Below are positions 37,301 through 57,362 of a DNA stretch of 64,000 bases, piece by piece. The first letter of the stretch is position 1. Each line of letters begins with the position of its first letter. Origin of the DNA: a virus; the IMG/VR virus record IMGVR_UViG_3300008111_000005, positions 40,872-104,871 of that record; one strand, 5' to 3'. Made by a program: the position numbers and the translations under genes. The notes beneath the pieces were generated by a model. The model saw only the letters and a list, made by a program, of their open reading frames with translations, had not been told where the DNA came from and did not search any database.

Positions 37301-39786
37301 TATCGTATCTTACTATTTACAATGTTTACTAAATTAGCTTGCGACTGCGTTATTTTGTCTACCACTTTTTTCTTTCTCTCATCGGTAAATAATGCCTTGT
37401 TAATTCCCGTCGTACTGGTGGCATCTGCAGCAAATCCAGGTCTTGCTCTACTTTGCGTACTTCCTCCCGATGCTTGTGTATCATACGCGGATACGAATTT
37501 ATCAAGTTCATCTTTCTTGAAGTTATTAATCAATGATACCGTGCGTGCAGCAAATATTTTTTTCAATGCGGTTAATTGTTGCGGTGTTAGTTTTGGATTG
37601 AGAGTATTTAATTCTTGATTAATTGCAGCAGCTTCGGCGGTAGTTAACAAATTTTTGTTTGCAAACAATCGTTTTAAAATACTTTCAATTGGTGCTGGTA
37701 TGTTAGTTGCTCCAAATCCAGCTTCGTTCAAACTATTTTGTACAACACTACTTAATCCAGAAAATTGTGTTTGTTTTAAATTTGCGTCAATAAATGCACT
37801 GACCGTGGCTCCCGTTGCTGCGGCTGATGCCTGTGCCTGTGGTTGTGTCTGTCTGGTTTGTTGTACATCCACTGTTGGTGAAAATATGTCATCAACTACT
37901 CGTGCCCGAACAAAGTCTGTTTCTCGTCGTTCTGGTGAACTTACGTTATTATTTAATGCCGATATAGCTAATTGTGAAAACACCGCTTTCGGATAATCGG
38001 TTTTAACTTCAACATTAAGAACATCTGGTCCGATTGTATCCTCATCCAAACTACTTAATTTTTTATTGAATGTATATATTGGTTGCGTTCTATTTCCAGC
38101 TTGTGGTCTACGTACATTATCATCCAATATACGGAACCCTGCAACATCGTCGTCAAAGAAAAGTTTTAAATCCCAGTAGTTTTCAGTTGCGGAATTCATA
38201 TTTCGTAATAGTGTTTCGAATCCATCCATCCACGTTCTTGCATTTAAAAACGCATTCTGTACTGCTTTACTGTTTACGAATACACCACTGGATAATGGGA
38301 TAGCATCACTAACTCTTCCAACTGATTGAAATTGCGAAACATTTAATTTACTAAATACTTGATTTACCCCACCCACTTGGGTACCTGCGGCAGCATTAAC
38401 ATCATTAAATCTATTGGATGCTGATCCAGATTCAATCTTACCCAATACAGAGGTTTTAAGTGTATAATCACGACTATTGGAATTACTTTTATTAATCTTG
38501 TCTAGATTATAGATAATCATTGTAGCCGGTTGTGTAGATCGTAAATCTTTATGGAATCCAATATATGTATCTGCCGCTTTATTGATTAAAAACGGTAGTT
38601 TATCTGTTGGTTTAATTCCGCTATTTACAATTTTGAGTAAACCGTCATTTACATCGTTTATGAAATAATCAATGAAAAAATCAAATCGAATGAAAAATGT
38701 ATCTTCGAATCCAAGGTCATTAGTTACGTTGAGTGTCTGTGATGTAGGCAATGCATCCTTGATAGCTTTGACATCATCTGGATCGTTAAATTGTAACACC
38801 GCCAATGCCTTTACATCACTTGGAGGTAATGCTGCGATTTCGTGTAGTAATTTAGAAAACTTTCCATTCAATTTAAAATATTGATTTATGGAAGTATTAT
38901 CTTGATTACCTGTTTGTCCAGAAGTTAGTGGATTATTTGTTGCGTATGCCGACACATACATAATATTATCCGCTTGACCGAACGCAGTAATTGTTACTTT
39001 GTATACATTATTTTCTAATGTTGTTTTTACATTGGCGATTCGTGCTACGGAAAAATCATAGTTGAAATTATTTGGCTTACACCATTCTTCTATTATCTTT
39101 GTTCTTGATGTTTTATTAAAATCACGAATGACTTGTAAATCTCTATTGTTCTTAAAATCTAAAATCTTCGTTAGTGATTTTGTACCAGTTGGTGTTGTAG
39201 ATACTGATCCCCATTCAAGTATAGCTGTCATTCCAGGTACAAATGATAATATCTCCAACAATTCCAATTGTTGTTGGGTATAACAACTTACTTCAAGTGT
39301 AAATTTTAATACATTACCATTTCGTGTACGTTCTATTCTTGCACTTGTAATACCAGGTGGTGGAAAATTCTTATTGGATTCTCTTCCCCCCTCTGTTACT
39401 AATGTAGGTAAGGTTCCTCTACCCCCTGTGTTTGCTAACGTATACGAGCTATCTTGTTGTACATGTGTGTACACTAATTTCTGTTCACCGGTATTATATG
39501 TTGTTCCGATAACCAATCCATTATTTGCAGCTGTACCGTACAGGTCGGACGTAGAATAATTTAAATTATCCCACCCATGCAATCCCAACGTAAATAAACG
39601 ATATCCTTTGTAAATTGAGTATCTTGTGCCCAATCTAGCTTCCAGATCAGACATATCGGCACCAGTAGTAAATCGTAAAAACGGAGCACGTGTACGTACT
39701 AGTTCTTTTGAACGAGAACGTTTATTTAATTCCGTTTGTAAATCTTCTCGAAAAACATTTAGTGTTTCTACTGGGTTTATTGACAT
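37300..39786 (-). CDS. Baseplate hub-like structural protein
   Basis: 828 residues. N-terminal region includes PPPGITSARIERTRNGNVLK and SCYTQQQLELLEILSFVPGM followed by TAILEWGS, a pattern I associate with hub/virion proteins of large myoviruses (PKPGIxxxxI..... LEx..xxPG....LEWG). The middle has domains with many Asn/Ser; the C-terminal 200 residues are Gln/Ala/Thr-rich (QTRQTQPQAQASAAATGATV) and end in helices. Position between the LysM protein and the DUF2272 fusion supports a baseplate role. Precise T4 equivalent uncertain (gp27 is the functional candidate). Confidence 0.6.
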   Translation of the reverse strand: MSINPVETLNVFREDLQTELNKRSRSKELVRTRAPFLRFTTGADMSDLEARLGTRYSIYKGYRLFTLGLHGWDNLNYSTSDLYGTAANNGLVIGTTYNTGEQKLVYTHVQQDSSYTLANTGGRGTLPTLVTEGGRESNKNFPPPGITSARIERTRNGNVLKFTLEVSCYTQQQLELLEILSFVPGMTAILEWGSVSTTPTGTKSLTKILDFKNNRDLQVIRDFNKTSRTKIIEEWCKPNNFNYDFSVARIANVKTTLENNVYKVTITAFGQADNIMYVSAYATNNPLTSGQTGNQDNTSINQYFKLNGKFSKLLHEIAALPPSDVKALAVLQFNDPDDVKAIKDALPTSQTLNVTNDLGFEDTFFIRFDFFIDYFINDVNDGLLKIVNSGIKPTDKLPFLINKAADTYIGFHKDLRSTQPATMIIYNLDKINKSNSNSRDYTLKTSVLGKIESGSASNRFNDVNAAAGTQVGGVNQVFSKLNVSQFQSVGRVSDAIPLSSGVFVNSKAVQNAFLNARTWMDGFETLLRNMNSATENYWDLKLFFDDDVAGFRILDDNVRRPQAGNRTQPIYTFNKKLSSLDEDTIGPDVLNVEVKTDYPKAVFSQLAISALNNNVSSPERRETDFVRARVVDDIFSPTVDVQQTRQTQPQAQASAAATGATVSAFIDANLKQTQFSGLSSVVQNSLNEAGFGATNIPAPIESILKRLFANKNLLTTAEAAAINQELNTLNPKLTPQQLTALKKIFAARTVSLINNFKKDELDKFVSAYDTQASGGSTQSRARPGFAADATSTTGINKALFTDERKKKVVDKITQSQANLVNIVNSKIR

Positions 39787-47376: not shown

Positions 47377-48849
47377 TTATACCTTACGTTTAAAGAGTTG
47401 CGCCATATCGTCTTGACGATGGATTAATTTACCTTCCGGTTCCCATTCTTGGTCAAGACCAGTGACCTTCATAATATTATCAATCGAACCATACTGCTGT
47501 GTCCAATCACAGGTCAGATTAATTAACAATAGGTCTGTCTTTTCATAAAGTTGCTTACGAACTTGTTCTGCTACTATCTTTGTTGTTTCCAACAATCGAC
47601 CTGGCATTAGGAGAACCAGACTGTATGCTTTTTCATTCCACGTATGTAAGTCAAATATACTACCCATTGTAAAGATTCCCCAATGGATTGTTGTTGCTGC
47701 CGACATACAACGTTGCTTATCCATTTCCACACCATGCGGAATTAAATCTTGTCTATCTCCCACCACACGACCTAACAAGACACCATTACCACACCCAAGG
47801 TCAAGCACATTTCCACTTGGAATATACTTCATATCTCCAACTGCATCAAGAATAACTTGATGGAAATGATCCATTGCACCCTTGTTACTAAATCCGTTCT
47901 CTTCCCAAACAGAAGTATCTTCCAACGACTTAGCAAAGGATAGAGTCTTAGTAATAGGTTTAATTTTAGTTTTCTTTTGGTTATACGGATATGTAATACC
48001 CGACATACCATCTTCTGGATATGAATGACTGAGCTTTTGTACCGTGTATTTCCACGGTGTCATATCTGTACGTGATGATATCTTATTGATTGGGGTACGA
48101 ATTTCCGCGATGCCGTGCAACGCTGACCATTCCACGGGCCACGAAAGAATTTCATAAATCCAATCAATTTCCTTATTATATCCAAGTGTACGACCAAGTT
48201 CTGCCATTTTCATACCAAGTTCTTCTGTTGCTTTACAATCAAATGAACATGGAAGATGTGAGACTAGTCGAATACCCTGCCACCGCCAAAGAATATTGGA
48301 TTCTGGTGGAGTGTCTGCATTAATATGAATAGTGTGATCGTTGTCGGTTAACGTCAGCTTATCAGCTGCCATTGTCCACGTAGAATCTACATATCCTTGG
48401 TTTACCCAATATTTGTTGAAATGTTCAATACAACATGTAGGGTATCCAAGTAATCTTCCCGCTTCACGGTCACGAATAGATGATGGGGAATTCCATATAC
48501 TGAACCATTCTTCAGCCAATCGTTCTGACTTTGTAAAAACAACTCGTATATTATAATCTCCACCAGCATATGGAATTGTAGTAGAGGAATATTGCCCAGT
48601 AATTCCTTCCTTTGCCAAGGCAACAATTTTTACACCATACTTACCATACTCTTCTTGCAACGACATCAATTCCGATGGACGGATGATATCTAGTGCAGAT
48701 GGTCGAATGTCATGAACCACAGACATACGTTCTATATGTCTCCATGCACTGGAAATTGCCGAAATAATCGGTTCGTATTTATTTTTGTTTTCCATACTCG
48801 TCCACTGCACACGAGTCCAATCTGGTAAAACGTGTTTAATTCTTTGCAT
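47377..48849 (-). CDS. DUF483-like domain fused to class I methyltransferase
   Basis: 490 residues. The N-terminal part contains DYNIRVVFTKSERLAEEWF and REAGRLLGYPTCCIEHFNKY, the G-YPxCC-xxF motif of DUF483-like proteins, then HLPCSFDCKATEELGMKMAE. The C-terminal ~150 residues are an S-adenosylmethionine methyltransferase: GNVLDLGCGNGVLLGRVV (motif I), PHGVEMDKQRCMSAA (motif II), LVLLMPGRLLET and TDLLLINLTCDW. Substrate unknown. It directly follows the radical SAM gene and its small partner, with a good ribosome site (AAGGGG), and is the third member of that gene set. Confidence 0.72.
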   Translation of the reverse strand: MQRIKHVLPDWTRVQWTSMENKNKYEPIISAISSAWRHIERMSVVHDIRPSALDIIRPSELMSLQEEYGKYGVKIVALAKEGITGQYSSTTIPYAGGDYNIRVVFTKSERLAEEWFSIWNSPSSIRDREAGRLLGYPTCCIEHFNKYWVNQGYVDSTWTMAADKLTLTDNDHTIHINADTPPESNILWRWQGIRLVSHLPCSFDCKATEELGMKMAELGRTLGYNKEIDWIYEILSWPVEWSALHGIAEIRTPINKISSRTDMTPWKYTVQKLSHSYPEDGMSGITYPYNQKKTKIKPITKTLSFAKSLEDTSVWEENGFSNKGAMDHFHQVILDAVGDMKYIPSGNVLDLGCGNGVLLGRVVGDRQDLIPHGVEMDKQRCMSAATTIHWGIFTMGSIFDLHTWNEKAYSLVLLMPGRLLETTKIVAEQVRKQLYEKTDLLLINLTCDWTQQYGSIDNIMKVTGLDQEWEPEGKLIHRQDDMAQLFKRKV

Positions 48850-48867
48850 AACCCCTTCGTGTTTAAA

Positions 48868-49224
48868 TTAAATCTTCAGCTTACTTTTTTCTTCTGCAAT
48901 AATCTGTTGCAAAAATGCCTTCCACGAATTTCCAGCAGTAGCCTGTGCTGTGTCGGTATCCGTACTTACTACTCCAAACTTGGCTTCATACGCTTCACGA
49001 TACCGACCAGTTTCATCAACGTGGTCTGCATGTCCGTTTGTCATATCAAACTCTTCACCAACAATTGTTTGTGATGTAGTTACTACTGGTACGGATTCGG
49101 TATCTCGAAATTCTTCTGGAATTTCCTTTAATATTCCCTTTTCCAAAAGTTCTTTTACTACTTCGAACTTTTGAGCGTAAGCTCCCGATGAGTCTACATG
49201 GTCAGCATGTAATCCTTGAATCAT
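48868..49224 (-). CDS. Small protein with two HADHxD motifs, radical SAM partner
   Basis: 118 residues. Two copies of one motif: LHADHVDSSGAYAQKFE at the N-terminus and GHADHVDETGRYREAYEAKF at residues ~63-82. A third copy ends the radical SAM protein encoded just upstream (HADHTDETGRYSKEFNE). Between them is a helix-rich linker; the end is a Lys/Glu helix (WKAFLQQIIAEEKSKLKI). H-A-D-H-V-D contains two H-x-D units, as do the virion repeats nearby. It may be a substrate, a recognition adaptor or a scaffold. I know no family for it. Starts 20 bases after the radical SAM stop with AGAGG. Confidence 0.7.
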   Translation of the reverse strand: MIQGLHADHVDSSGAYAQKFEVVKELLEKGILKEIPEEFRDTESVPVVTTSQTIVGEEFDMTNGHADHVDETGRYREAYEAKFGVVSTDTDTAQATAGNSWKAFLQQIIAEEKSKLKI

Positions 49225-49244
49225 TTGTTTATCCTCTACTATTA

Positions 49245-50558
49245 TTAAGGTAAAAATCCATATTGTTCGTTAAACTCTTTTGAATATCGTCCTGTTTCGT
49301 CTGTATGATCGGCGTGTGGTATTTTACCACCGTTTTTCATTACGATTTTTTGTTGTTTGATAAACTTATCAATATCAAACTGTCCTTCCAAATATCGTTT
49401 AATCTGCGCCAATCGTAACTCAACACCTTGACTGTATCCGTACATCAATGCATCTTCGTATTTTTGTCTATCTGGATGTAGTGACAATGGTGTTTCTCCT
49501 TTATGCACCATTAACTTTTCAAATATACCGAATGCCACTTTCCAATTCAAGCAGGTGTCTGTACGATTTCTCCAATCCATATCAATACCTGTACCAGGAC
49601 AATGTGCCTTACAAGTTAAGAAGAAACGACATCCTTGACATCCACCGTGTTCCTGCGGTGTGTGGTATAACGCCATTTGACGTTCAAATCCATCATATTG
49701 GGCTTTAATCCAATTAATACCTTCTTTATTTCCACGACCACAATTTGCTTGGTTTCCTTGTGAATCAATACCTTGCACTGCGTGGGTAGTATATGGGTCA
49801 CACGATAAGAAGGTACATGTTGCATTATTATCTTGTGCCTTTAACATATCTTCTACGTCACGGAAAATATCGAATCGAAATGACCGTTTACCAGGACCAT
49901 TTAATTCATTAATTTCAAACTCCCACATATCCAGTAAGAATTCAATATTTTGTTCTGGTGTTAACGCAAGTGATTCCCCAATTGAACTGTGGTCAATTTC
50001 TAACGGATGGAGGCGAGCGCCATCAACACCCCACGATTGAAGTTCTTTTACCCATGCCTTAAATCGGTCACGGTATTTTGGAAGTCCATTCTTTTTGTGA
50101 ACAGTGATAATTAAACCAAGAGAAATTTTATTAGCTAATAGTTTCTTAATTGCTTCAAATGATTTACGAGTAGCTTCTCTGGTTTTTTCCAATGACCCCG
50201 CCCAACGAGTATCATTCATTTCATCGGGTCCGTCGAGGGACACACCAACGTGAACGTTATACTTCTTGAACATTTCAATGTGGCGGTCGGTGATTAAAAC
50301 ACCATTTGTTTGGATACCATTTGCTTTATAGCGTTCGTATCCCCACTTAAAAATAGTTTCTAAATCGTCAATATCAGTTAATAATGGTTCACCACCAAAT
50401 AGAGTAAAGTTACCACCCTCTTTGGCCAAACCTTCTAACATTTTTTCAACAGAATATGTTTTTTGACGGAAGTTACCCGCGTCACGCATAGGATGTTCGT
50501 AACAATACGGACAACTTAAATTACATACTACTCCAACTGGTTCCAATTCAATCGTCAT
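49245..50558 (-). CDS. Radical SAM/SPASM peptide-modifying enzyme
   Basis: 437 residues. VVCNLSCPYCYEH is the radical SAM CxxxCxxC cluster site; FTLFGGEPLL is the GGEP SAM-binding motif; VGVSLDGPDEMND and LGLIITVHKKNG follow in the barrel. A SPASM domain holds two auxiliary clusters: LSCDPYTTHAVQGIDSQGNQ with ANCGRG, then GCQGCRFFLTCKAHCPG and TDTCLNW. This is the anaerobic-sulfatase-maturase/RiPP-maturase class, which modifies side chains of peptides. The C-terminal 28 residues carry HADHTDETGRYSKEFNE, a motif repeated in the next gene. It has its own promoter, start after GAGGTTAT. Next upstream gene is a His-Thr-Asp repeat protein, a likely substrate by context. Confidence 0.88.
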   Translation of the reverse strand: MTIELEPVGVVCNLSCPYCYEHPMRDAGNFRQKTYSVEKMLEGLAKEGGNFTLFGGEPLLTDIDDLETIFKWGYERYKANGIQTNGVLITDRHIEMFKKYNVHVGVSLDGPDEMNDTRWAGSLEKTREATRKSFEAIKKLLANKISLGLIITVHKKNGLPKYRDRFKAWVKELQSWGVDGARLHPLEIDHSSIGESLALTPEQNIEFLLDMWEFEINELNGPGKRSFRFDIFRDVEDMLKAQDNNATCTFLSCDPYTTHAVQGIDSQGNQANCGRGNKEGINWIKAQYDGFERQMALYHTPQEHGGCQGCRFFLTCKAHCPGTGIDMDWRNRTDTCLNWKVAFGIFEKLMVHKGETPLSLHPDRQKYEDALMYGYSQGVELRLAQIKRYLEGQFDIDKFIKQQKIVMKNGGKIPHADHTDETGRYSKEFNEQYGFLP

Positions 50559-50587
50559 ATAACCTCGTGATTAATAAATCATTTTAT

Positions 50588-50616
50588 AAGTTACTACATT
50601 CCACCCACATTGTCAA
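50588..50616 (-). promoter_or_regulatory. Sigma70-type promoter of the radical SAM unit
   Basis: Gene sense: TTGACA (50611-50616), 17-base spacer, TAACTT (50588-50593), 30 bases before the radical SAM start. Perfect -35, 3 of 6 at -10. The spacer contains TGTGGG as at 14710-14738. It suggests the enzyme is expressed separately from the late repeat proteins upstream. Confidence 0.5.
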
Positions 50617-50622
50617 GCCCCA

Positions 50623-51393
50623 TTATGGACCAACAAATACTGGTTGGTCACTATGTGGTGTGGTATTATCTGTATGAGCAGCGGGAGTAGTGTTATCGGT
50701 GTGTGCAGCCGGTGTGGTATTATCCGTATGAGCAGCGGGAGTAGTGTTATCGGTGTGCGCAGCCGGTGTGGTATTATCCGTATGTGCTGCTGGAGTCGTA
50801 TTGTCCGTATGTGCTGCATTGATAGTAGTATTTGTGTGTGCCGCGGCAATGTCTGTGTGGCTGGTAGCAATGTCTGTGTGACTCGCTGGTGTGGTATTGT
50901 CCGTATGTGCTGCGTTGGTAGTATTATCCGTGTGTGATGCGTTAATAGTGGTATCAGTATGTGCTGCTGGCGTGGTGTTGTCGGTGTGTGCAATGTTAGT
51001 GTGGGATGTAGCAATATCAGTATGAGATGTTGCTATATTCGTGTGGGATGTTGCGATGTCGGTATGCGCAGCATTCGTAGTGTTGTCTGTATGTGATGCG
51101 TTAATAGTGGTGTTAGCAAACGCAATATTCGTGTGTGAATTTCCAGTGTAATTGTCTGTGTGCGCAGCTGCGATATTAGTATGCGATGCAGCAACATTGG
51201 AATGTGGTGTAGTGCTGTTACTAAACGCAATATTACTGTGTGCAATATCGGAATGTGAAGATATTGTCGCAATATTACTATGCGCAATATCTGTATGTGC
51301 TGACGACGCAGCGGCATTACCGTGTGCGATATTTGTATGTGATCCAGCCACATTGCTATGACCGCCGGGAGAATAACTATCGGAATGTGCCAT
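50623..51393 (-). CDS. His-[Thr/Ser]-[Asp/Asn] repeat protein, 256 aa
   Basis: About 31 His residues, each followed by Thr/Ser/Gly and then Asp/Asn; I see no His outside this motif. Units are 5, 7 or 9 residues apart (HSNIA; SHTDIAT; HTDNTTPAA), ending in six consecutive 9-residue units at residues 195-246. Phe-Ser-Asn or Phe-Ala-Asn occasionally takes the place of His. Lys, Arg, Glu, Leu, Cys and Trp are absent. Odd spacing and short polar side chains favour an extended beta or beta-helical fibre; HxD sites could bind metal. No signal peptide. It is virtually certain to be a virion appendage by context (between fibre genes). Adjacent to the radical SAM gene. Confidence 0.8.
   Translation of the reverse strand: MAHSDSYSPGGHSNVAGSHTNIAHGNAAASSAHTDIAHSNIATISSHSDIAHSNIAFSNSTTPHSNVAASHTNIAAAHTDNYTGNSHTNIAFANTTINASHTDNTTNAAHTDIATSHTNIATSHTDIATSHTNIAHTDNTTPAAHTDTTINASHTDNTTNAAHTDNTTPASHTDIATSHTDIAAAHTNTTINAAHTDNTTPAAHTDNTTPAAHTDNTTPAAHTDNTTPAAHTDNTTPAAHTDNTTPHSDQPVFVGP
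50656..50811 (-). repeat. Six 27-bp tandem repeats coding HTDNTTPAA
   Basis: The most regular stretch of the repeat gene: six units of 27 bp, in frame, differing at synonymous sites (for example ATGAGCAGCGGGAGT against GTGCAGCCGGTGT on the plus strand). Synonymous divergence with conserved protein sequence suggests selection on the peptide rather than fresh slippage. Confidence 0.75.
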
Positions 51394-51410
51394 AAAATAT
51401 TATTCCTGAA

Positions 51411-52571
51411 TTATGAGCAGAGTTCGTTGGTACCACCACATACTTGATAATTAGAACACGCTAGGTAATAAAAACAACCCGAACATGTAACCAAATTGAT
51501 ACCATCACATACACTAGTACCATCGGTGCAACAATAATTATTTGTATGAGAGGCATTTGCCGTACTGTCTTGGTGGGATATTGAAGTATTAGTGAATGCA
51601 ATATTATTATGCGCAATATCAGAATGTGAAGATATCGCCGCAATATTACTATGTGCTATATCCGTATGTGCGGAAGAAGCTGCAATGTTACTATGCGCAA
51701 TATTAGTATGTGCCGCAGCGATATTTGAAAAGTTTGTAGTACTATCCGTATGACCTATTGATGTATTCGTATGTGCTGCGTTGGTAGTACTATCCGTGTG
51801 TGCGATATTTGTATGTGAATTTGGTATATAACTGTTTGTATGTGCAGCAGGTATTGTACTATCGGTATGCGGAATTGTGGTATTCGTGTGTGGTATTGTG
51901 GTGTTGGTATGTGGAACTGTGGTATTGACGAACGCAATATTTGTGTGAGCTGCTGGTGTGGTATTGTCCGTATGTGCTGCATTGATAGTAGTATTTGTAT
52001 GTGCTGCGTTGATAGTAGTATCTGTATGTGCTGCTGGTATCGTAGTATTTGTGTGAGGAATAGTGGTATTTGTGTGTGGAGTTGTATTATCTGTATGTGA
52101 TGATGGTGTGGTGTTATCTGTATGTGCAGCAATCGTGGTATTGTCTGTGTGTGCAGCAATTGTTGTATTATCGGTGTGTGCAGCAATCGTGGTATTATCG
52201 GTGTGTGCTGCGTTGATAGTAATATCAGTATGTGCTGCTGGAGTGGTGTTATCGGTGTGTGCCGCAGTTACGTCGGTGTGACCACGAATTTCACTACCTG
52301 TACCAGAAATCCAATGCCAAAAAGTACTTTCAACCCACACAGAACCAGCCTTTGCACCTGCCGCAGCACCTAAGTTTGTATATGCAATTGTACGGTCAAC
52401 CCCTGTAGCGGAGATATAATGGAAATCATTTCCATCTACCCACACCGATCCAGGTTTAGCTCCCGCTGGTGATGTACCGGCGGTACCAGTATAATAATAT
52501 TCATTTCCCGAGCCGTCTATGAAACGAAACGTTTCACCATCAACCCAGATACTACCAGGTGCCTTTGGCAT
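51411..52571 (-). CDS. His-repeat appendage protein with N-terminal triplicate domain and Cys-rich end
   Basis: 386 residues. Residues 1-95 hold three copies of a ~30-residue unit: PGSIWVDGETFRFIDGSGNE, PGSVWVDGNDFHYISATGVD and AGSVWVESTFWHWISGTGSE. From about residue 100 to 340 the protein is His-[TS]-[DN] repeats ([21 protein letters not shown] forms). It ends in a Cys-rich segment NNYCCTDGTSVCDGINLVTC, then GCFYYLACSNYQVCGGTNELC, with nine Cys in ~43 residues. Cys-dense tails on extracellular fibres usually form disulfides; here a radical SAM enzyme nearby makes thioether cross-links another thought (inference). A TATTTATA octamer precedes it by 33 bases. Confidence 0.78.
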   Translation of the reverse strand: MPKAPGSIWVDGETFRFIDGSGNEYYYTGTAGTSPAGAKPGSVWVDGNDFHYISATGVDRTIAYTNLGAAAGAKAGSVWVESTFWHWISGTGSEIRGHTDVTAAHTDNTTPAAHTDITINAAHTDNTTIAAHTDNTTIAAHTDNTTIAAHTDNTTPSSHTDNTTPHTNTTIPHTNTTIPAAHTDTTINAAHTNTTINAAHTDNTTPAAHTNIAFVNTTVPHTNTTIPHTNTTIPHTDSTIPAAHTNSYIPNSHTNIAHTDSTTNAAHTNTSIGHTDSTTNFSNIAAAHTNIAHSNIAASSAHTDIAHSNIAAISSHSDIAHNNIAFTNTSISHQDSTANASHTNNYCCTDGTSVCDGINLVTCSGCFYYLACSNYQVCGGTNELCS

Positions 52572-52603
52572 ATATTAAAATCTCCACATAACGATAACTT
52601 TCA

Positions 52604-52611
52604 TATAAATA
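52604..52611 (-). promoter_or_regulatory. TATTTATA octamer before the His-repeat gene
   Basis: Gene sense TATTTATA, 33 bases before the start at 52571, in a 43-base gap between genes. Same element as before gp26 and the two large fibre genes. Confidence 0.4.
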
Positions 52612-52614
52612 GAG

Positions 52615-53478
52615 TTATACACAAGTAAATGTTCCTAAACAACCAACTGGCCGTGCTGCACATACTACTGCGTAGACACTACTATTGGGATTTGTATAAA
52701 AATTTGACCCAGATGATGGACTACCATCGGCACAAGTTACATATCCTGCGGGACACGATGCATCCACACCACGAGTTCCTTGTGGACCTGTTGGTCCTTG
52801 TACACCAGTAATTCCCTGTACTCCAGCCGACCCCGTGGATGCCGCTGGTGCAGAAATACCTGTAACTCCTACAACACCCGTTGCTCCTTGTGGTCCCGAT
52901 GGTCCTGTTGCACCCGCTGTGGGTAATCCTACAACACCACCTACACCCGTAGCACCCACCACGTTTGTTAATCCCGATGGTCCTGTTTGTCCAATAATTC
53001 CTGTTATACCAAGAATTCCTTGAATACCTGTTGCACCTGTTGGTCCTGTTGCACCCGTTGCGCCTGTTGACCCAGACACTAGTGAACCGATACCTGTAGC
53101 ACCCGTTGGTCCTGTAATACCAATAGACCCCGATGCTCCTGTTGGCCCTGTTGGTCCCGTAGACCCAGTAACACCAGTTGGTCCAATAACTCCTGTTGGC
53201 CCTGTTGGTCCTAGTGGTCCTGTTGGTCCAGTTGGACCTGAGGTAGTTAATCCCGTTACCCCAGATACTCCTGTTGGTCCAGTAGACCCAGACCCAGCTA
53301 TACCTACCAAACCAATTGGACCTGTTGGACCTCTATCACCTATAACTCCTGTTGCACCAGGTCCATATGATGCGGTTAATACATTTACTCCCGCAGCGTA
53401 TGTTGCAGTAAATGCTAAATTACTATATAATGCAACGCTTGCAGTAGTTGGTGTACCAAGTGGAAAAAATGTGGTCAT
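52615..53478 (-). CDS. Collagen-like appendage protein with Cys-rich end, 287 aa
   Basis: The N-terminus [19 protein letters not shown] is shared in form with the next two genes upstream (G-T-P-T-T-x-S-x-A-L). Residues ~40-235 are Gly-x-y triplets, mostly GPTGPTG and GATG, as in phage and bacterial collagen-like fibres, which form trimers. The end is [20 protein letters not shown] and [16 protein letters not shown], five Cys in ~45 residues. It is a fibre or fibre tip by composition. Overlaps the upstream gene by 4 bases. Confidence 0.8.
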
Positions 53479-55037
53479 AGGAATGCGTTACTGTGAGCGG
53501 CAGCGACATTTGAATGTGCTGCGGTGATATTGGAGAAATTGGTGGTATTGTCTGTATGTGCGGCGGTAATATCCGTGTGTGCTGCGGTTATATCCGTGTG
53601 TGCTGCTGCAATGTTACTATGTGCAATATTTGTGTGTGCTGCTGCAACATTTGAAAATGCGATGTTACTGTGTGCGATATCAGTATGTGATGCGTTGGTA
53701 GTATTATCAGAATGTGATCCTGGTGTAGTACTATCAGTAAATGGAATATCGGTATGTGACGACGGTGTAGTACTATTTACGAATGCCGCATCGGTATGCA
53801 CACCTATTATATCACTGTGATCATTAAATGGACTACATGGTGTACCAGATGGACAAGAAGAATATCCGAAATAAAATAAACATCCAGGCCCCGCATCACC
53901 ATCTAAACAATAAACACCAGTCGCTGCATCATCACCATGCCCGATTGTACTGTCCGAATGTGGTTGATCAGTATGTGAGGCCGGCGTGGTACTAGATATT
54001 GCCGCAATATTAGTATGTTCTGTGTTAATAGTAGTATTTGTGTGTGCTGCGTTAATAGTACTGGAACTTCCCGCAATATTTCCGTGTGAAATATTTGAAT
54101 GTGGTGTGGTACTAGTAATTCCAGCAATATTGGTATGTGCTGTATAATTGTTTGTGTGTGGTATTGTGATATTTGTAAAGTTTGTAGTACTGTCGGTGTG
54201 TGCTGCAGTAATATTAGAATGTGGTGTAGTACTATCACTATGTGGGACCGTAATATCGGAATGTGTTTGATTACATGATCCCGTGACGAAAAATGCAGCT
54301 CTTCCCGCAGCACCTTGTGGTCCTGTTGGACCGACTGGCCCAGAAGGACCGGTAATACCTGTAACACCAGCGGAACCGAAGGTATTAGGACCACTAATAC
54401 CCTGTGAACCTGCTGCACCCGTTGCTCCTGTTGGTCCTACTGGTCCTGTTGCTCCAGCACTACCAGATGGACCGATTGGCCCCGTAGAACCAACTGGCCC
54501 CACACCTGTTGGTCCTGTACTACCTTGTGGTCCTGTTGGACCTGTTGAACCTGTTGGTCCAGTTGCTCCAGCAACACCCGCTACACCACCAAATATACCA
54601 ACACTACCTGTTGGACCTGTTGCACCAATTGCCCCTGTTGGACCTGTTATACCTCGACTACCTGTTGGTCCCGTAACACCGATTACACCAGTGCTACCAG
54701 TTGGACCTGTTGGACCCGTGGGGCCTGTAGATCCTGTGATGCCACTTGGTCCAGTTGGACCTGTTGACCCAGATGTTTGTGGTCCAGTTGATCCTGTGGG
54801 TCCAGTTATACCGATAGAGCCGGACACGCCAGTTGGACCTGTTGGACCTGTTGGCCCCGTTGCTCCTGTTGGTCCTAGTGGTCCTGATGGTCCTGTAAAT
54901 CCACCTATAGCGAACGATGCAGTAGCATATCCAGACCCACTATTTACCGCAACTGACGCTGTAAACGTCAGTACACTTGCAGATAATGCGAATGAACTAG
55001 TAGTTGGTGTTCCGTATGGGAAAAACTTAAACGTCAT
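53475..55037 (-). CDS. Collagen-like plus His-repeat hybrid appendage protein, 520 aa
   Basis: Three parts. Residues 1-50: [20 protein letters not shown] head module. Residues ~50-255: Gly-x-y triplets (GPTGPTG, GSTGPTG). Residues ~265-520: His-[TS]-[DN] repeats ([40 protein letters not shown]) broken near the middle by a Cys-rich island [20 protein letters not shown] with CPSGTPC. It links the two repeat architectures in one chain, implying that collagen-like and His-repeat genes serve the same appendage. Probably trimeric, extracellular on the virion. Confidence 0.8.
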
Positions 55038-55052
55038 AACACTTACTCTCTA

Positions 55053-55784
55053 TTACGGTGTATTTGCACCTGTTGGTCCTGTTGCTCCTACTGCACCTGT
55101 TGGTCCTGTTGCTCCCGTAGCACCCGTAGCACCGGTTGGCCCCGTAAATGCGGTTCCTTGTGCTCCTGTTGCTCCCGTTGGTCCCGTGATACCGATAGTA
55201 CCTTGTGGACCACTTGCACCTCGTGGGCCAGACGGACCCGTTGCTCCTGTTGCGCCTGTTGGTCCTGCACCTGCCACACCTGTTGCTCCCGTTGGTCCTG
55301 TCGCACCTGTGACACCTACTGGACCTTGTATACCTTGTACACCAGATGCTCCTGATGGTCCTGCAGGCCCCGTTGGTCCTGTTGCACCAGTTGGTCCTAT
55401 AATACCCGTAGACCCTTGTGGACCCGTAGGACCAGACGAACCACTTACTCCAATCGGTCCAGTTGGACCAGTTGATGCTGGTCCTGTGACTCCTGTTGGT
55501 CCCGTTAATCCTTGAATACCTGTTGGACCTGTTGGACCTGTTACTGATGATGGTCCTGTTGGTCCTGTTGCTCCTATTGGTCCCGTTGGACCGATTCCCG
55601 TTGGGCCAGAAGAACCAGACACACCAGTTATAACACTTGTTGGTCCCGTTGCTCCCGTTGCACCACCTCCTGTTAATGAGTATGATGCCGATGGTCCCGA
55701 TAGCACGAATGATGCAGACACCGCAGTTGATGCGGTATATGCTAACGATGCGCTAAATGTTCTAAACGGGAAAAATTTTAACAT
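55053..55784 (-). CDS. Collagen-like appendage protein, 243 aa
   Basis: [20 protein letters not shown] opens a ~45-residue head module similar to the two preceding collagen-like proteins, followed by almost unbroken Gly-x-y triplets ([29 protein letters not shown]) to the last residue. Unlike its neighbours it has neither His repeats nor Cys. Pro is mostly at the x position and Thr at y, the pattern of phage collagen-like fibres. A TATTTATA octamer lies just upstream. Confidence 0.8.
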
Positions 55785-55815: not shown

Positions 55816-56502
55816 TTAAGCTGGTTGTTTTTGCGGTGTTACGGCGTGCCACTTTCCAATTGGACATGATGCGGATGCCAATTGTGTTTTTGTTTTCATA
55901 AAACATCCACACTTTTCACAACGGAAACTATCCGTTTTCAAAAATTCACAACCCTGACACATTGAAAATCGTTGAAATGCTGCATCCGCGTCAACCAACA
56001 CAGGTAATCCCGCTGCTGCGTTCTTTCCCGTATGCCACATTTCCTTTGCAAAATTACGTGCTTGTTGGAACAATGAAGGAAATTGTGTGGTATCTTCGGT
56101 TTTTATCATTTGTTCCGTTTCTTGATATTGCGTATGCATTGTTTCGTTATGTTCATATGCAGCATCTACATATGACCGACCTTCCATCATTTTCAATGCG
56201 GTGACGATATCCGTTGCCACACTCATTGCATTCATACCATGACGGAAAAATAACGGGGTATAATTTTTAGGGGCAAAGTAATATACCGCTTGTGTTAGTG
56301 GTCGAGGAAATACCGGCGGTTCTTCTCTATAACAAATAATATGTAAATGTACAGGATTGAATTGATTCTGTACTTGTGCTTCAAAATCAGTTAGAAACTT
56401 TCCTTTGAAATTTTCACATCCTTCTGCAAGAACAACTGCTAATACTGGATGTTGTGCGTTGTCAATTAAATCTTTTAAATCGTGAAATAATTCTACACTC
56501 AT
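55816..56502 (-). CDS. Phage protein with C-terminal zinc ribbon
   Basis: 228 residues from ATG 56502 (GAGG upstream; the frame's extra four codons start with TTG). N-terminal ~100 residues form an alpha/beta domain (HPVLAVVLAEGCENFKGKFL, HLHIICYREEPPVFP). The C-terminus RFSMCQGCEFLKTDSFRCEK, CGCFMKTK and SCPIGKW is a zinc ribbon seen at the end of many T4-like phage proteins (CxxC..CxxCGCxxxxK...CPxGKW). The N-terminal part resembles nothing I can name. Lies among fibre genes, so a fibre assembly or attachment role is possible. Confidence 0.7.
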   Translation of the reverse strand: MSVELFHDLKDLIDNAQHPVLAVVLAEGCENFKGKFLTDFEAQVQNQFNPVHLHIICYREEPPVFPRPLTQAVYYFAPKNYTPLFFRHGMNAMSVATDIVTALKMMEGRSYVDAAYEHNETMHTQYQETEQMIKTEDTTQFPSLFQQARNFAKEMWHTGKNAAAGLPVLVDADAAFQRFSMCQGCEFLKTDSFRCEKCGCFMKTKTQLASASCPIGKWHAVTPQKQPA

Positions 56503-56510
56503 AAATAACC

Positions 56511-57362
56511 TCAATCTTCTAGTGAAAAGACGAATAGTGATGCGGATACCGTAGTAGTTGCCGCGCCGTTTGTTAAACGATAATATGTTTCTGATGATGG
56601 ACTGACGATATTGTTAACCAAATCATTATCGTTTCGACCAACTATAATAGGTGATAGTGGCATTGCAGAACTATCTTCCATATAAATATCTGCAATTAAT
56701 CCACTACTTGATACTGGGTCCGTATTAAACGATCGTGATACTTCCGATGGGTTATCTCTATAACTTGCACTTGTGTACAAACGTAATCGTAATGGACTGG
56801 CGTTTGGTTCAACCTTATACAAGAGATATGTCTTAGGAGATACTATACTTCCAGTTACGGATGACCCCGATGATATTGTCGCAGAAGGTAACGTTAACGT
56901 TTGTCTTGCGTTTACTCCTGCTAAGTTTGTTACAGTTGTATCTTCAATTAAAAATCGTGTTAATGAAATTCTATCTTCCCCCGTTAATGGGAAGGAAGAT
57001 CCTGTATCAATGGTATAATATATATCAGGTGATACCGCATTGTCAAGGTTCAACCCAAATATAGGTGGGGCTAAACGAAATAATGTTTCGGTATCTAAAT
57101 TAATATCTGTTATTAACGATATGTTGGATGGTATACTTTGTGAATTAAATGGACGAATTAATTCACCAGGATCATTACGACTTCCAGAATCACCGTATAA
57201 TCTTACACGACACCGAGTACTTGCCTGTATTGCCGTGAGTACAAATGATCGTCCTATTGATACCGATCCCGTAATTCTTGGTGATGCGGTACCAACAACA
57301 ATACCCACAGTTTCTCGTTTTAAGTTTGTAGCTCCAGCGAGAATTTGTTCTCTAAGTCCCAT
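56511..57362 (-). CDS. Virion protein with two tandem ~130-residue domains
   Basis: 283 residues. An internal duplication is visible: RCRVRLYGDSGSRNDPGELI and RPFNSQS in the first half match LRLRLYTSASYRDNPSEVSR and SFNTDPV in the second, and the following ITDINLDTETLFRLAPPIFG matches IADIYMEDSSAMPLSPIIVG; each half ends in a YYT/YYR-x-xNG strand. All-beta composition fits a structural or fibre-decorating protein. Starts MGLREQILAGATN; placed between the large fibre and the zinc-ribbon protein. Confidence 0.7.
   Translation of the reverse strand: MGLREQILAGATNLKRETVGIVVGTASPRITGSVSIGRSFVLTAIQASTRCRVRLYGDSGSRNDPGELIRPFNSQSIPSNISLITDINLDTETLFRLAPPIFGLNLDNAVSPDIYYTIDTGSSFPLTGEDRISLTRFLIEDTTVTNLAGVNARQTLTLPSATISSGSSVTGSIVSPKTYLLYKVEPNASPLRLRLYTSASYRDNPSEVSRSFNTDPVSSSGLIADIYMEDSSAMPLSPIIVGRNDNDLVNNIVSPSSETYYRLTNGAATTTVSASLFVFSLED

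Follow-up and report, generated by a model that had tools for sequence, protein, structure and literature searches.

The 64,000-nucleotide stretch analysed here (the window; bases 40872-104871 of the 104,871-base virus record IMGVR_UViG_3300008111_000005) carries on its minus strand a gene cluster in which a radical SAM/SPASM enzyme (49245-50558) is encoded next to proteins with arrays of His-x-[Asp/Asn] triplets. This cluster probably is a dedicated post-translational modification module whose enzyme would install His/Phe-to-Asp/Asn cyclophane cross-links along the rods of tail appendages. The initial annotation, made from the sequence of the window alone, described five consecutive genes at 47377-52571 of the minus strand, and these are indeed intact open reading frames (ORFs), as are all frames of the locus, with Pfam and motif matches in agreement with the description. 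To these, the present analysis adds a third repeat protein (53475-55037), Phe-x-Asn units that occur inside the repeats, a HADHxD module in the tail of the enzyme and, beyond the window, a fourth repeat protein.

The proposed substrates in the window are two H-[TS]-[DN] repeat proteins, one of 256 aa (50623-51393) and the other of 386 aa (51411-52571), the latter with an N-terminal PGS(I/V)WV domain and a Cys-rich C-terminus, and a collagen-like protein of 520 aa with a C-terminal H-x-[DN] repeat domain (53475-55037; Pfam Collagen, 1e-22) that is also a proposed tail fibre (PHROG tail fibre, 1.3e-43). Asp or Asn is found at position +2 of 31 of 31, 30 of 32 and 26 of 26 His residues of these proteins, respectively; the two that deviate are not part of the repeat domain, and in the repeat regions alone, all 87 His conform. 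Shuffling the repeat regions 10,000 times yields on average 4-6 His with D/N at +2, and at most 15, and in the remaining proteins of the phage record, 75 of 549 His (14%) have such a partner. The repeat units are only 75-89% alike at the DNA level, and synonymous codons are mixed (CAT/CAC for His, GAT/GAC/AAT/AAC for Asp/Asn), and hence it is selection on the protein, and not recent DNA expansion, that keeps the triplet.

Across the family, the motif is broader than the His-specific H-[TS]-[DN] of the initial annotation. Among the 34 distinct array sequences of the window clade, D/N is present at +2 of 874 of the 874 His, a figure that is partly a product of how the proteins were selected, and of 138 of the 156 Phe, a figure free of that effect. 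For nearly all other residues the frequency is 0-9%; the 22% observed for Thr reflects Thr being the middle residue of HTDN units. The partner of Phe is Asn (135 cases) and rarely Asp (3), and His is paired with both. Tyr has D/N at +2 in 13 of 20 cases in loci L015-L022, and two arrays are of the Phe type, namely those of L028 (Phe-x-[DN] in 39 of 43) and L032 (Phe-x-[DNQ] in 71 of 105, with much of the remainder being Phe-x-Ser); in the tree of the enzyme, these two loci are on separate branches amid lineages of the His type. As judged from the sequences, the rule is aromatic-x-[Asp/Asn], with Phe, Tyr and Trp able to replace His. The spacing of the triplets varies by clade, being mainly 5, 7 or 9 in the window clade, 3-9 in Thermus phages and from 3 to 12 or more overall, and therefore the constraint is local to the triplet rather than imposed by a periodic fold. 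In the window (50623-55037) and its clade, the spacing of the His and Phe triplets is nearly always odd (5, 7, 9), which is untrue of other clades.

The association between the enzyme and the arrays is near certain. The enzyme and an alignment of its family served as queries for scans of IMG/VR and GTDB genomes, and the Thermus phages and the record of the window were added; the family enzyme is encoded in 68 viral loci and 69 bacterial ones of this sample, and 11 loci with outgroup radical SAM proteins are the controls. A gene with an H-x-[DN] array lies within 5 kb in 57 of the 68 viral loci, 45 of the 69 bacterial loci and none of the 11 control loci. Loci that are related to one another do not count as independent, several being near-identical. 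All 102 enzyme-array pairs are at most 5 kb apart, 99 are on the same strand and 74 lie within 200 bp of each other, and the pairing persists in Thermus phages and in bacteria of many phyla. The 11 viral loci without an H-x-[DN] array include the two with Phe arrays (L028 and L032), eight located near a contig end, for which the sister loci L016, L018, L028 and phiLo carry arrays in the part that is cut off, and a single true exception (L061). In the reverse direction, a scan of DNA for (HxDx)3H, which covered a sample, yielded at least 120 stretches, at least 13 of them with real repeat ORFs; among the matches listed, the remaining stretches are short DNA repeats or chance, and 12 of the 13 records with real arrays encode the enzyme (10 in the fetched piece and 2 elsewhere in the record). 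The co-occurrence test proposed in the initial annotation thus came out in its favour in both directions, and the outcome named there as contrary, that is, the enzyme in many phages that lack repeat proteins, was not seen among the 68 viral loci; the confinement of the system to phages did not survive, given the bacterial loci with arrays.

The bacterial loci without arrays mostly come from Bradyrhizobium, Sphingomonas and their relatives, in which clusters of this type encode a peptide of about 80 residues ending in -HIDIL, -HVDF or similar. In loci L117-L127, L130-L133 and L093 (Bradyrhizobium, Sphingomonas, Paraburkholderia, Marinicella and others), such peptides (-HIDIL, -HIDF or -HVDF), the enzyme and DUF483 are clustered, in some cases with further radical-SAM-like genes. 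Two of the peptides were tested and showed no NCBIfam match; apparently, they represent an unnamed family similar to ribosomally synthesized and post-translationally modified peptides (RiPPs). Other bacterial relatives (L108-L110, L136 and L092, from Armatimonadota, Actinomycetota and Chloroflexota) encode HxD-repeat proteins with signals resembling those for twin-arginine translocation (TAT; SRRTLIAAGWTVPVV...), which suggests that these are exported cellular versions. In L079, L039 and L065, HxD arrays are joined to tectonin/tachylectin and laminin-G-like lectin domains, and the array of L036 forms part of a protein of the central tail fibre J / Phage-tail_3 type.

The enzyme of the window, the proposed maturase, is a radical SAM/SPASM protein of 437 aa (Pfam Radical_SAM, 4e-16) that contains the CxxxCxxC motif (C12/C16/C19) and the seven-Cys SPASM signature (C253-x14-G-x4-C273, C307-x2-C-x5-C-x3-C320, C336). 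The radical SAM cysteines and all seven SPASM cysteines are invariant in 61 relatives. The AlphaFold model has a predicted local distance difference test score (pLDDT) of 87.7, with values below 50 at residues 413-424 in the tail. The best matches among solved structures, by both sequence and fold, are anaerobic sulfatase maturases (anSME), with the cyclophane synthase ChlB, titled a 'multiple cyclophane synthase' in an entry of the reference list of PMC12636437, being the second-best kind. The best NCBIfam matches include anSME, DynA (dynobactin), AmcB, YhhB, XyeB and GrrM. PHROG 1802 was discarded as a marker specific to the enzyme, being matched in all 14 control genomes.

The C-terminal tail of the enzyme (49245-49322), predicted to be largely disordered, contains a substrate-like module, HADHTDETGRYSKEFNEQYGF. 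This HADHTDETGRY module is the same as that in the small protein encoded next to the enzyme (48868-49224; 118 aa, with two HADHxD(E/S)(T/S)GxY modules) and is present in 13 of 13 close relatives. In 14 window-clade loci, the window included, there are exactly three HADHxDxxGxY copies per locus, two in the small protein and one at the enzyme C-terminus; a stricter DNA pattern of the module was found in 13 viral contigs, always beside the enzyme, and in no other viral contig. More broadly, at least two HxD/N triplets are present in the tail of 43 of 65 phage enzymes compared to 6 of 53 bacterial ones. In L044 (10001-13129), L051 (7973-11362) and L047, family enzymes are encoded in tandem pairs, in which the first enzyme (574-673 aa in total) ends in a very long tail rich in HxD. 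The small protein showed no match in the search against phage records, and its similarity to a 'DNA primase' (PHROG, E=0.005) was judged to be a chance match.

The core of the system consists of the enzyme, a DUF483 protein and a repeat protein, whereas the small HADHxD protein, considered a partner in the initial annotation, is confined to the close relatives of the window. In the window, a protein of 490 aa (47377-48849) combines DUF483 (25.7 bits, marginally over the curated Pfam cut-off of 25) with a class I methyltransferase domain (weak MetW/MTS matches). The invariant DUF483 motifs GYPxCC and CxxxC correspond to C139, C140, C201 and C205, and a Foldseek search with the model of the fusion protein retrieved methyltransferases only. 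The methyltransferase domain is optional, being absent in Thermus phages and, by its length, in L023. In the bacterial loci L069, L083, L091 and L105, the enzyme is encoded by a far longer ORF, the C-terminal part of which is similar to DUF483 or includes it; the enzyme and DUF483 therefore probably act in the same process.

The closest parallels in cultured viruses are the Thermus phages Cumys (PQ109079), phiMa (MH673674) and phiLo (MH673673), in which the enzyme gene is followed by that for DUF483; in Cumys and phiMa, the two proteins have 46-48% and 31-32% identity, respectively, to those of the window. Cumys_13 and phiMa_29 are HxD repeat genes that end 8 bp before the enzyme gene, with D/N at +2 of 54 of 54 and 53 of 53 His, and with an N-terminal PGSxWI domain that resembles that of the 51411-52571 protein of the window; in phiLo, three longer repeat proteins (75 of 78, 104 of 109 and 55 of 59) are encoded 4-10 kb away on the opposite strand. 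The genes around the Cumys enzyme are baseplate and tail genes. Cumys and phiMa share with the window a homologous enzyme, the DUF483 neighbour and the same kind of adjoining repeat protein but lack the methyltransferase domain and the HADHxD protein. According to the available passages of a 2024 article in Viruses (PMC11437467), the enzyme-DUF483 pair of Cumys and phiMa was published as an 'rSAM module' with a guess at DNA modification, and fusions of DUF483 with methyltransferase and radical SAM domains were named; on the repeats and their tie to the enzyme, those passages are silent. The statement of the initial annotation that no phage counterpart had been described thus has to be dropped for the enzyme-DUF483 pair and, as far as these passages go, holds for the repeats.

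The aromatic-x-[Asp/Asn] motif matches the substrate rule for three-residue cyclophanes (triceptides), in which Trp, Phe, Tyr or His at position i is joined to the C-beta of Asn, Asp, Ser, Arg or Ala at i+2 (PMC11002830). The documented pairs are Trp-Asn/Asp for OscB, Phe-Asn for XncB and OscB, Phe-Ser for MscB, Tyr-Asp for YxdB, His-Ala for HaaB and His-Arg for YhhB (PMC11002830). The triceptide enzymes (XncB, OscB, MscB, YxdB, HaaB, YhhB, AmcB and ChlB) and the window enzyme are all radical SAM/SPASM proteins with an aromatic-x-[Asp/Asn/Ser] substrate triplet, which here is seen at the sequence level, and the window enzyme is similar to ChlB, AmcB and YhhB in sequence and fold. The system in question differs in the dozens of triplets per long surface or tail protein, the constant DUF483 partner and the motif in the enzyme's own tail. 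Modification of numerous short repeats along one chain by a radical SAM enzyme is also known from TvgB/TvgA, a poly-cyclopropylglycine RiPP in which Val of TVGG repeats is converted to cyclopropylglycine (PMC9062424), with a different motif and chemistry. The initial annotation regarded the cluster as a phage analogue of His-Xaa-Ser (Hxs) systems, in which radical SAM proteins are likewise encoded with a protein containing a repeated His-x-residue motif. The tie of a SPASM enzyme to H-x-[DN] proteins of the tail region stands; membership in Hxs does not. The match to HxsB (TIGR03978) reaches 33.8 bits against a cut-off of 370, HxsC (TIGR03977) gives no match and HxsA (TIGR03979) has none in the record; the third residue is Asp/Asn rather than Ser, and there is one enzyme rather than a pair. 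At the level of sequence, the two systems share no homology beyond the general radical SAM domain.

The genes of the locus are transcribed in the order of a collagen-like protein (55053-55784), the collagen-like protein with the repeat domain, another collagen-like protein (52615-53478), the two repeat proteins, the enzyme, the small HADHxD protein and the DUF483-methyltransferase fusion, followed by a small gene and then by those for a DNA helicase and a baseplate-hub protein. The fourth repeat protein, outside the window at 38173-39270 of the record (18173-19270 of L288; minus strand, 365 aa), combines a collagen-like stretch with 14 of 14 H-x-[DN] units and is encoded about 50 kb from the enzyme gene; it is likely a further, unlinked substrate. 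Variable Cys-rich C-terminal modules are present in the 51411-52571 protein and in other repeat proteins (L004 5102-5842, L006 7428-8639 and L007 4547-6190) and differ among close relatives, as if receptor-binding tips were swapped. Among the tail genes, 55816-56514 encodes a protein with a C-terminal Cys-cluster (DUF6171-like, PHROG 13558).

In the proposed mechanism, the enzyme would recognize aromatic-x-[Asp/Asn] triplets (mostly with His, often Phe and sometimes Tyr or Trp) in the repeat regions of tail appendages and abstract hydrogen from the beta carbon of Asp/Asn, which would then bond to the aromatic ring two residues earlier. The product would be a three-residue cyclophane, with two hydrogens lost per triplet and tens of such cross-links per chain, and a Thr/Ser/Asn-rich, probably floppy chain would turn into a stiff, protease-resistant rod bearing the receptor-binding tip. 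DUF483, with its four invariant cysteines, would be a constant partner, perhaps handling the substrate, and the fused methyltransferase an optional additional step. As a matter of speculation, the enzyme tail and the small HADHxD protein may tether the enzyme near its substrate or may themselves be modified. Cross-links between the C-beta of Asp/Asn and the ring are proposed because the motif follows the triceptide rule, the radical SAM/SPASM signatures are complete and cyclophane maturases are among the matches; location in the virion appears likely because of the fusions to the collagen-like tail fibre and to the central tail fibre J and the tail and baseplate genes around the Cumys enzyme. 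Triceptide-like chemistry, known only from small peptides, would then have been extended to long proteins of surfaces and tails.

Several observations weigh against this scheme. Known triceptide precursors are short and bear leaders, whereas the phage substrates are proteins of 200-1400 aa with no recognised leader, and the short HxD-ending peptides are confined to some bacterial relatives. Every cyclophane-family model scores far under its curated cut-off, at best 83 bits against 425 for AmcB, 68 against 445 for YhhB, 55 against 450 for XyeB and 55 against 310 for GrrM. The anaerobic sulfatase maturase is an equally near relative (TIGR03942, 76 bits against 349); scans of the neighbouring proteins with Pfam and NCBIfam recognised no sulfatase among them. 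L061 has the enzyme with 10 kb of upstream sequence and no array, its tail bearing several HGD triplets, and L257, with a HYDPGS repeat, lacks the enzyme in its 48-kb record. A His-x-Asp/Asn cyclophane was not found described in the literature covered.

The most serious alternative, albeit an unlikely one, is that the enzyme acts on the same triplets with a different radical SAM chemistry, for example, by epimerising Asp/Asn to D-residues, by C-methylation or by a dynobactin-like C-N cross-link to His. The association and motif evidence is identical for this case, DynA is among the best NCBIfam matches and many members of the family have DUF483 as a fusion with a methyltransferase. However, epimerisation or methylation of Asp/Asn gives no reason for a strict aromatic residue at i-2, and a C-N bond to His is impossible in the Phe arrays. 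Thioether and cyclopropane chemistries require Cys or Val, which are absent from the motif, and were rejected. His and Asp are common metal ligands, and the repeats could be unmodified metal-binding rods, comparable to T4-type HxH fibre tips, with the enzyme acting elsewhere, for example, on the small HADHxD protein, which shares its own module with the enzyme tail. This appears quite improbable: a metal-binding role is rejected because of the Phe arrays, given that Phe, which is no metal binder, replaces His unit by unit and, in two lineages, nearly wholesale. Moreover, most members of the family lack the small protein, and the linkage of array and enzyme is too tight for an unrelated function.

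Modification of DNA by the module, as suggested for Cumys and phiMa in the available passages of PMC11437467, which also report homologues near deazapurine genes in some cyanobacteria, has still less to commend it: the constant neighbour is the aromatic-x-[D/N] repeat protein, the enzyme tails bear the same motif and the closest relatives of the enzyme modify peptides and proteins. Hardly credible, finally, is the notion that the enzyme is a moron located near tail genes and that the association reflects only the modular structure of phage genomes. In phages, the enzyme and repeat genes are indeed both located in the tail region, but bacteria retain the pairing, there with repeat proteins that are TAT-exported or have lectin domains and with short HxD-ending peptides, and selection by arrays alone recovers the enzyme in all but one of the records with real arrays among the matches listed.

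On balance, we lean, with some reserve, towards a triceptide-type synthase that makes poly-cyclophane tail rods in phages and, with the DUF483 partner, acts likewise on exported and surface proteins in bacteria of many phyla. This would be the first case of virion proteins modified by a radical SAM enzyme; no description of HxD repeats or of such modification was found in the freely accessible literature searched. If the cyclophane scheme is correct, virus particles bear dense, radical-made cross-links that represent a new route to rigid fibres without a globular fold, and this would help to explain how low-complexity repeats project tail tips and endure hot springs. The published rSAM module of Thermus phages would then be re-read as protein rather than DNA chemistry, and DUF483 would gain a testable role. 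The triceptide field would gain natural arrays of many motifs along with a cultured and harmless model, the phages of Thermus thermophilus HB8.

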